From contig JAFRPL010000005.1 of NCBI GenBank assembly GCA_017429165.1, positions 1 to 64,000 of the forward strand: DNA of 64,000 nucleotides. The letters run 5' to 3'. A program made the translations under genes and the position numbers. The notes beneath the pieces were generated by a model. That model had not been told where the DNA came from. It ran no database searches and saw only the letters and a list, made by a program, of their open reading frames with translations. Position 1 is the stretch's first letter. The number at the start of each line of letters is the position of its first letter. The DNA comes from Clostridia bacterium. Lineage in GTDB: Bacteria; Bacillota; Clostridia; Oscillospirales; CAG-382. Below are positions 1 to 2,340 of this stretch, in pieces.

Positions 1-360
1 CAGATTCCCGGCTATTGTACGTTGATACGAAATCTGATCATTGCTCAAAACATCTGCTGCCTTCCGATATGCTTCATATGCAGCAGGGTAATTGCTGCAA
101 CGCTCGTGGATAATGCCCATGTTGTAATAGGCAGAATAAGTCGGGAACCAAGTATCAGGGAATTTCTCTAAAGCCCATTGTATCAGGTCAATTCCTTCTT
201 GTGACCGCTTGATCGGAAACTGAACGGCTGTGGTGTAGCAGTGCTGAAGACGATGGAAATTACCCCGGACTCGTTTTAAGAGTGTTTCATACTCAGCATA
301 GGCCTCTTTGGGCGTTCCTTCTTTGATGAGTTTGTTCTCATATGCTTCAATCTTCGTCAC
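1..360 (-). CDS. TPR-like protein, partial at window edge
   Basis: An open frame runs from a GTG start at 358-360 to the left window edge, showing the first 120 residues. AGGTG lies five bases before the GTG and supports this start. The protein is soluble and helical, with TPR-like segments such as YYNMGIIHERC and AAYEAYRKAADVL; it has no membrane segment. I do not recognise a specific family, and a role in protein-protein contacts is only inferred. It lies outside the duplicated rlmD end at 390-441, so it is probably cargo of an element integrated downstream of rlmD. Base composition is more AT-rich than the backbone. Confidence 0.6.
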   Translation of the reverse strand, partial: MTKIEAYENKLIKEGTPKEAYAEYETLLKRVRGNFHRLQHCYTTAVQFPIKRSQEGIDLIQWALEKFPDTWFPTYSAYYNMGIIHERCSNYPAAYEAYRKAADVLSNDQISYQRTIAGNL

Positions 361-389
361 AGTATCACCTCACTTTTTTTACATCTACC

Positions 390-441
390 CTGTAGCCTCA
401 ACTCAGGCTCGAGACATCAACACGACTGATTCCACATGCCT
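390..441 (-). repeat. duplicated rlmD 3' end (candidate attachment site)
   Basis: Matches 927-978 at 41 of 52 positions by eye, including an unbroken run at 400-413. Read on the minus strand it encodes RHVESVVLMSRA followed by TGA, a canonical RlmD/RumA C-terminus and arguably closer to the family consensus than the end of the resident gene. This is what an integrase leaves when it inserts in the 3' end of a gene and restores the reading frame. The 170-base gap 361-529 around it holds nothing else that I can recognise. Confidence 0.7.
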
Positions 442-529
442 TGAGACAATAACGTGAATAAAAATGGCAAATATCTATTCTATAGTCACGACTATCGACG
501 TAAAATATGCCGTTGATCACATATTAGCG

Positions 530-901
530 TCAAGTCTCAATATGCGGATAACTAACGGTTTTAAAGCCGCCCTTCGTTGTAATTGTTATGGTGTTTTTCA
601 TTTCGTCTATTAACAATTCATTTGATATACTTCCGCCAACAGTTATAACAAAAATAGATACAGTATCTTCTTGAACCGGGACTTCCATAATCTGACCATT
701 TTTGATGCGAATTCCTATTTGATCGAGTTCAGAGACTTCAATTCTCGATATTGGCTGACCCCATTTATCATGATCACACAAGTCTCCCACAAATCCATGT
801 GATTGTAAAAAACTGGTTTTAGGGATTTTGGAAAAAACAATCCAATATGGCATAAGTGCAGAAGCAAAAGAACGTTTTCTTATTACTTTAATGCTTTTCA
901 T
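530..901 (-). CDS. hypothetical protein between two rlmD-end repeats
   Basis: 123 residues from the ATG at 899-901; GAGGA lies six bases upstream, which favours this over the TTG two codons earlier. No signal peptide or clear membrane helix. The N-terminus is basic (KSIKVIRKRSF) and the rest alternates hydrophobic and polar residues, suggesting a small beta-rich domain. I do not recognise the family. It sits alone between the two copies of the rlmD 3' end (390-441 and 927-978), so it behaves as a single-gene cargo unit of a small inserted segment. Its AT-rich composition differs from the backbone. Confidence 0.55.
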   Translation of the reverse strand: MKSIKVIRKRSFASALMPYWIVFSKIPKTSFLQSHGFVGDLCDHDKWGQPISRIEVSELDQIGIRIKNGQIMEVPVQEDTVSIFVITVGGSISNELLIDEMKNTITITTKGGFKTVSYPHIET

Positions 902-926
902 TTTCAATCCTCAAAACATATCCAAT

Positions 927-978
927 CTGTAGCCTTAACTCAGGCTCGAGTGATCAACGTAACTACCTCAACATGGCT
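927..978 (-). repeat. rlmD 3' end, resident copy of the repeat
   Basis: The last codons and stop of rlmD plus 13 bases downstream. It is the partner of 390-441 at an offset of 537 bases, and encodes SHVEVVTLITRA-stop. The most conserved part around the stop contains AGCCT and AGGCT as short inverted arms, as expected of a tyrosine-recombinase core site. Confidence 0.65.
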
Positions 979-2289
979 CGTCCGCGGGAAGAGGTCGAAC
1001 AGCGCGGCGCGTTCAACTGCAAAGCCGAAGCTCGAGAGCGCCTTTACATCACGGGCGAGAGTATCGGGATTGCACGATATATAAACGAACTTTTCAACGC
1101 CGCTTTCGCCGACGGCGTTCACGGTACGGGGCGAAAGCCCTTTTCGAGGCGGATCGACGATAAGCGTATCTATGCGTCCGTATTCTCGTTTGCACGCGGC
1201 GATACCTTCGGAAGCGTCGGCGCAGTCGTAGCGAAAACGTTCCCTTCCGTCGGCGAGCGCGTTGGCGCGCGCGTTTTCCACCGCTTCGGGGATGATATCG
1301 CACCCGTACAGCGCGCAGTCGGGCGGCGACACGCAAATCCCCACGGTGCCGGTGCCGCAGTAGAGGTCCAGAAAAACCCCGCCGCCGCATTCCGCGTATT
1401 CCGCGGCTTTGTAGTAAAGCAGCTCGGCGGTCTCGGTATTGACCTGGAAAAACGAGCGCGGAGAAATGAGGAACCGCTTGCCGCATATATTTTCGTACAA
1501 CGGTTTGTTTTCGCAGAGCGTAAACGTTTTTTCGCCGAAGATGACGTTGGTCTTTTCGGCGTTCAAATTTGCGTAAACGCCGCAGACGCTATTTATGCGC
1601 GCGATACGTCCGGCGGCAGACGCAAGCTTTGCCGAAACAGCGCCGGAGTTTACAACTATGCAGACCGAAACGTCGTTTTCGCGGTTGCAGCGCAGACACA
1701 TAAAACGAAGTTCGCCGTTGCCCGTCGATTCGTCGTATACCGAAAAGCCGTAACCGTTAAGGATATCAAGCGTATGCGCAAGCACTTTATCAAAGCATTC
1801 TTTCTGCGCAAGGCATTTTTCGACCTTTACCAGTCGGTGGCTCGATTCGGAATAAAAACCTGCGATGATTTTGCCGTTTTCGTCTTTGCCCAGCGGAAAG
1901 CGCACGTTGTTGCGGTAGCGGTCGCTTTTATACGTGACCACGGGTTCGGGGTCGATATCGACGCATGCGATCTTTTTGAACGCGTTCACTACGTAGTCGC
2001 GCTTTATCTGTTTTTCGAGCTTGTAATCTATATGCCTGAAAACGCATCCGCCGCACTTCTTGTACGGCTCGCAAAGATCACGCACTCTGTATTCGGATTC
2101 GATTTCCGCGCTGCGTGCCGCCGCGACGGAATATGCGGCGGTCTCTTTGATTATCTCGATATCCAGCACGTCGCCGGTAACGCCGTTCTTCACAAAAACC
2201 ACGCGCCCGTCGGGAAGCTTTCCGACTCCAGCGCCGAGATTTGTCATATTCTCAATTCTGATTCCGCAAAATATCTGTTTTTTTGACAT
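940..2289 (-). CDS. rlmD: 23S rRNA (uracil-5-)-methyltransferase RlmD/RumA-type
   Basis: 449-residue RNA m5U methyltransferase that uses S-adenosylmethionine. An N-terminal TRAM-like domain is followed by an iron-sulfur cysteine group (CEPYKKCGGC), the SAM motif DLYCGTGTVGI, the catalytic DPPRKG segment and the catalytic cysteine in ISCNPDTLARDV. The start at 2287-2289 (MSKKQ) has AAAGGG just upstream; a longer frame to 2307 lacks a site. RlmD and the related RlmCD or TrmFO-independent TrmA enzymes cannot be separated by eye, so the target uridine is uncertain. Its 3' end is the repeat unit described at 927-978 and 390-441, marking it as an integration target. It is transcribed divergently from the metallohydrolase gene. 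Confidence 0.9.
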   Translation of the reverse strand: MSKKQIFCGIRIENMTNLGAGVGKLPDGRVVFVKNGVTGDVLDIEIIKETAAYSVAAARSAEIESEYRVRDLCEPYKKCGGCVFRHIDYKLEKQIKRDYVVNAFKKIACVDIDPEPVVTYKSDRYRNNVRFPLGKDENGKIIAGFYSESSHRLVKVEKCLAQKECFDKVLAHTLDILNGYGFSVYDESTGNGELRFMCLRCNRENDVSVCIVVNSGAVSAKLASAAGRIARINSVCGVYANLNAEKTNVIFGEKTFTLCENKPLYENICGKRFLISPRSFFQVNTETAELLYYKAAEYAECGGGVFLDLYCGTGTVGICVSPPDCALYGCDIIPEAVENARANALADGRERFRYDCADASEGIAACKREYGRIDTLIVDPPRKGLSPRTVNAVGESGVEKFVYISCNPDTLARDVKALSSFGFAVERAALFDLFPRTSHVEVVTLITRA

Positions 2290-2340
2290 TGGTATTCCCT
2301 TTTGCAAAAACTTGTGCTATAATAAACGCGGTGATGAAAA

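Follow-up and report, generated by a model that had tools for sequence, protein, structure and literature searches.

Single-gene cassette arrays at the 3' end of rlmD: an integron-like gene store in Firmicutes without an integron integrase

The window, that is, the whole stretch of 64,000 nucleotides analysed here, lies on contig C35 of a draft MAG of 2.16 Mb (G000) and begins at base 1 of that contig. Its left end carries the following features, all on the minus strand.

940..2307, minus strand: rlmD, encoding a 23S rRNA uracil-C5 methyltransferase of 455 aa (open reading frame; Pfam tRNA_U5-meth_tr at 2.5e-20, and TRAM; 92% identical in G045)
968..969, minus strand: most likely crossover core GA between rlmD and cassette 1, within CATGTT-GA (HVE codons) (comparison of cassette contexts)
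431..967, minus strand: cassette 1, 537 bp from core to core (found at full length behind the rlmD of L131, 89% DNA identity)
913..967 (approximate extent), minus strand: right arm of cassette 1, an rlmD-tail mimic with stop, EVVTLITRA*, and the motif CTCGAGCC..GGCTACAG (motif common to G045, G007, G347 and others)
530..907, minus strand: open reading frame of cassette 1, 125 aa (list of open reading frames; present in L131)
415..516, minus strand: inter-cassette block, the left arm of the site, ending GGCATGTG-GA (blastn 82% to the consensus; profile match of 56.7 bits)
431..432, minus strand: most likely crossover core GA between cassette 1 and cassette 2 (comparison of cassette contexts)
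370..430 (approximate extent), minus strand: right arm of cassette 2, an rlmD-tail mimic, ESVVLMSRA*, and the motif CTCGAGCC..GGCTACAG..TAGATG (same arm directly behind rlmD in L136)
1..360, minus strand: start of the open reading frame of cassette 2, a TPR protein, which runs on into contig C31 (14-bp overlap with continuous frame; TPR match)

The 125-aa protein of cassette 1 matches no Pfam family and was not found in the 393 other genomes of the order (394 in the set), and the complete relative of cassette 2 in L136 encodes a TPR protein of 224 aa.

A preliminary description of this DNA had claimed that the end of rlmD recurs at 390-441, in frame and with its stop, and this repeat is real: positions 390-441 and 927-978 agree at 41 of 52 bases, ungapped and in the same strand and frame, the next-best 52-mer anywhere in the window on either strand reaching 27 of 52 matches and the best in 50 base-composition shuffles of the window at most 33 of 52. 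The 23-mer TGTAGCCTNAACTCAGGCTCGAG from the inner part of the repeat occurs at just these two sites in the 2.16-Mb genome with up to three mismatches allowed, and a repeat search lengthens the pair to 383-441 and 920-978 at 76% identity. A chance repeat was ruled out by the shuffles and by the genome-wide uniqueness of the 23-mer. Read on the minus strand, both copies give an RlmD C-terminus followed by a stop (SHVEVVTLITRA and RHVESVVLMSRA).

A third copy of the block and tail is present on contig C31 of the same genome, about 0.3 kb from the contig end, and the genes beside it stand in the same order in the sister species G045 with 91-94% identity. C35 and C31 share 14 bases at their ends (TAGCCGGGAATCTG), with the TPR frame unbroken across the join; L136, in which the whole joined unit occurs uninterrupted (876 bp, 94%), supports this join. 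From rlmD outward, the locus thus consists of cassette 1 (125 aa), cassette 2 (TPR), the displaced rlmD end and the chromosome, the displaced original end on C31 being CATGTTGAGACGGTTGTTTTATTACGTCGG (HVETVVLLRRKTHQN*) and the far side of the locus having been traced via G047. The sister species carries the same locus and the same displaced rlmD end with different cassettes in between, of which the first holds a 129-aa open reading frame and the last a GNAT protein. The further att copy that had been predicted to the left thus exists, and it is this third copy, not the outer copy at 390-441, that represents the original rlmD end; the outer copy is the junction between cassettes 1 and 2. An integrase gene had also been expected to the left, and none is found in the whole joined C35 and C31 array of two cassettes. 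What had been called a nested integration site is thus an integration site, and the nested or truncated ICE gives way to two successive single-gene cassettes, the first of 537 bp. A truncated ICE at the contig end was ruled out by C31, by the 14-bp overlap and by the full-length match in L136.

Assembly tends to break at this place. rlmD was found in three genomes of the genus, in each of which the contig stops 350-950 bp behind the gene, and contigs end less than 1 kb behind rlmD in G000, G045, G047, G013, G014, G035 and G059; such frequent breaks are probably due to variable or repeated units there. In G046, a member of the same genus rated 100% complete, neither an rlmD match at E 1e-60 nor a block was found, and its rlmD may be split across contigs. 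All genomes used here are draft MAGs; a binning artefact is unlikely because long contigs hold host genes together with cassettes (C35, 68 kb; L136, 145 kb; L175, 75 kb).

The position of the crossover emerges from four cassettes that were compared in different contexts. When the same cassette stands behind rlmD in one genome and follows a block or integrase gene in another, the base before GA, the third of the Val codon, differs between the two settings, and from GA on the sequence follows the cassette; the crossover core is therefore most likely the GA in CAYGTN-GA, and about 2-3 bp (GA, GAR) are shared by every junction. To the right of the core, each cassette encodes an RlmD-like tail with a stop, so that RlmD is complete again after every insertion. 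To the left lies a conserved block of about 110 nt (TATTCACGCT.TTGTCCCAAGGCAYGTN) that closes in GGCAYGTNGA, where the next unit starts, and ahead of the block the sequence is more variable and contains inverted repeats. The preliminary description was right in taking the repeat for the trace of site-specific integration in the 3' end of rlmD, and also in suggesting that the resident rlmD end may come from a mobile element: cassette 1 supplied the last codons of the gene, starting at the GA core.

Both cassettes of the window recur elsewhere. Cassette 1 is first behind rlmD in L131 (89% DNA identity), and cassette 2, second in the window, is first behind rlmD in L136 (94% DNA identity), with a relative at 70% also in first place behind the rlmD of L153, while the RlmD protein of G000 has just 33-34% aa identity to those of the L131 and L136 hosts. 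Likewise, G347, a genome of another family, has the 129-aa cassette of G045 at 95% identity, there standing behind a serine integrase, and a 1081-bp GNAT cassette is 98% identical between L175 and L194. In such shared-cassette pairs, homology runs from core to core save for a few bases at the ends. As judged from sequence comparison, these cases show the same cassettes in distantly related Firmicutes and at different positions, and we are nearly certain that the rlmD locus is an array of mobile single-gene cassettes.

The arrangement extends well beyond the genus. For example, G007, from another genus, has three single-ORF units behind rlmD with the conserved block between units, and the 105-nt block consensus has matches at 80-95% in genomes from several of the order's families. 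An exact 27-nt block pattern was found in 72 stretches among GTDB genomes, mostly from ruminants and belonging to Oscillospiraceae, Lachnospiraceae, Ruminococcaceae, Erysipelotrichaceae and others; neither this pattern nor the tail pattern matched viral contigs, no block was found in plasmid records, the block gave one match of 26 nt in phage records, covering the rlmD-like end only, and an Rfam search of the blocks returned no known RNA family. A profile built from the matches to the 27-nt pattern revealed loci with two or three blocks, all in the same orientation. The upstream context could be judged at 35 testable loci, with rlmD upstream of the block at 23 and a large serine integrase with an rlmD-type 3' end at two (L134 and L194); L143, the third match to the integrase query, is a small resolvase only, and neither rlmD nor an integrase lies upstream at nine, some of which are in a separate GNAT island. 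Blocks away from rlmD were seen at L181:6502-7460, L197, L179, L162 and L148 (block forward), in a shared unit that is 84-95% identical between genomes and in which a promoter-like leader (TTGATT..TATAAT) is followed by one GNAT gene, the block and another GNAT gene; these loci are a second kind of home for cassettes, and no tRNA genes were found at them.

The 44 complete cassettes have a median length of 832 bp and contain exactly one ORF in 35 cases, the main ORF pointing away from rlmD, co-directionally with it, in 43 of the 44. The units span 0.55-1.9 kb and hold intact single genes, with a cargo that includes GNAT acetyltransferases, a methyltransferase, TPR proteins, a CPT-like kinase, a trypsin-like protease, DUF2716, DUF4279, DMP19 and DUF6998, and with no family for about half of the sample. 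In L127 and L180 the first unit behind rlmD has two genes, and its second half matches a stand-alone cassette of G007 without a left arm of its own; these units seem to be fused cassettes. At about 2040-2200 of L098 (G065:C20), an rlmD 3' fragment of about 50 codons lies between two cassettes, which looks as though a cassette had carried a longer stretch of rlmD along with it. A long C-terminal extension of rlmD (..YEEIKDYVLKTTGLKVSSLYISQVKRK..) was observed in L024 and L054 (G043) and in L199 (G347), and the same extension stands behind several serine integrases (L209, L211, L216); it is another mobile rlmD tail.

Integration into the 3' end of this gene has a precedent, correctly invoked in the preliminary description, in the ICEs of rumA, whose two att sites lie in rumA and in the integrase gene, respectively, with the 3' ends being exchanged (PMC4701971). 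Elements that carry a large serine integrase aimed at rumA/rlmD, be they ICEs, IMEs or prophages (PMC4701971, PMC5704250), share with the cassettes the same target end, the crossover in the HVE codons and the exchange of C-termini, and homologous integrases end in rlmD-like tails; the cassettes, on the other hand, measure 0.5-2 kb, carry one gene without integrase or transfer genes, and are arrayed. Insertion in the rlmD 3' end with exchange of C-terminal codons is thus seen for the cassettes, and a serine integrase of their own at the element end is absent from the two-cassette array. Accretion of CIMEs at one site is also known (PMC5704250), and the arrays might be read as decayed ICEs or IMEs of this kind, stacked in tandem at rlmD with the att sites alone left, an account close to that of the preliminary description. 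CIMEs resemble the arrays in being integrase-less, att-flanked units stacked at one site, also without transfer genes; rumA/rlmD is a known ICE site, and an rlmD-type integrase adjoins cassettes in G347 and L194. The cassettes differ from CIMEs, however, in being intact single genes that share one standard block of about 110 nt across unrelated cargo and occur as whole, separate units in different hosts. No ICE gene remnants that would betray origin from an ICE or IME by gene loss were found in the cassettes, conjugation or integrase remnants are absent from most arrays, and the window array consists of two cassettes and nothing else, all of which makes decay very unlikely, although a conservative reading would describe the rlmD arrays as an extreme variant of CIME-type accretion.

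The hallmark of integrons, whose prevalence is highest among Proteobacteria, is the gene-cassette array. A true integron array in Firmicutes, of the CALIN kind, would account for tandem single-gene cassettes in one orientation and for clusters without an integrase, and the likeness goes further: in both systems the units are non-replicating, have one recombination site each, carry about half of their cargo as unknowns and are exchanged between species. The criterion for an integron was an IntI in the genome, an on-site IntI not being required for CALIN, and IntI (TIGR02249) scored above the curated cut-off in none of 14 array genomes (best 84 bits against a cut-off of 265). The rlmD arrays also lack an attC core, GTTRRRY being present at the core of one of 88 sites, and have a 2-bp GA core instead; unlike integron cassettes, they land in the 3' end of a coding gene whose C-terminus is rebuilt by each cassette. 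Support for an attC-like folded site was uneven, single-strand folding of five blocks being not consistently better than that of shuffles (z +1.3, -0.3, -0.9, -1.6 and -4.1). We consider a true integron array extremely improbable.

Which enzyme moves the cassettes is the weakest step of the model. A 2-bp core suits a serine recombinase, and tyrosine recombinases usually have an overlap of 6-8 bp. The integrase P0001 of G347 has Resolvase, Recombinase and Zn-ribbon domains and ends ...DETVVLITRAGS at its own att site, most of its homologues having rlmD-like tails at their ends; rlmD lies about 11 kb upstream of P0001 and a cassette directly behind it, and integrase gene and cassettes therefore share the core, the block arm and the integrase-gene arm being similar only next to it. 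The viral contig L257 (IMGVR_UViG_3300010278_000408) encodes an integrase that shares 76% identity with P0001 and has an rlmD-type C-terminus (QVETVVLLAKTSV*); the contig is without the cassette block and is likely a prophage user of the rlmD site. The recombinases of the window genome comprise six of the large serine type, none with the rlmD-type 3' end of a cognate integrase, and five tyrosine recombinases. Such an end is likewise missing from all large serine recombinases that were examined across 13 array genomes, five of which have no Recombinase-domain protein. The integrase would therefore have to work in trans or for a short time only, unless a different enzyme is responsible. One such alternative keeps the same mobile cassettes and assigns them to a dedicated unrecognised recombinase or to Xer-type tyrosine recombinases, with homologous recombination between blocks reshuffling the arrays. 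It is consistent with G169, G181 and G021, array genomes that have Xer-like proteins and no Recombinase-domain protein, and with blocks of about 110 bp at 80-95% identity, between which recombination is possible. The 2-3 bp shared by the junctions are, however, shorter than a tyrosine recombinase overlap, and homologous recombination alone cannot put unrelated units behind the rlmD of unrelated hosts; we regard this alternative as unlikely, though it is the strongest of the three. Movement by serine-type recombination is probable, and we lean slightly toward rumA-type integrases of other elements moving the cassettes in trans.

In the mechanism that we propose, a cassette would form a circle in which the block, as left arm, and the rlmD mimic, as right arm, make up an attP-like site. 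A large serine integrase targeting rumA/rlmD, supplied in trans by incoming ICEs or prophages, would insert this circle into the 3' end of rlmD (attB), the array would grow through repeated insertion, and the cassettes may be transcribed from rlmD or from their own signals. To the model as a whole, an rlmD cassette array with crossover at GA and a rumA-type serine integrase acting in trans, we assign a probability of about 0.7.

No earlier description of such arrays was found in the open-access papers searched. The rlmD cassette arrays appear as an integron-like gene store without an integron integrase, shared across families. On balance, they probably represent an integron-independent form of gene capture in rumen and gut Firmicutes, in which large serine integrases handle single-gene cassettes at a landing site in the rlmD end and the host gene is kept intact by the last codons that each cassette carries. 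If this is true, the Firmicutes of the gut and rumen would have a gene-shuffling store of their own, a second system beside integrons, with a standard block, single-gene cargo and exchange across families at no cost to the integrity of the host gene, which would also account for the frequent assembly breaks behind rlmD and would open to test the birth of cassettes, the nature of their carriers and the ability of large serine integrases to drive an integron-like system.
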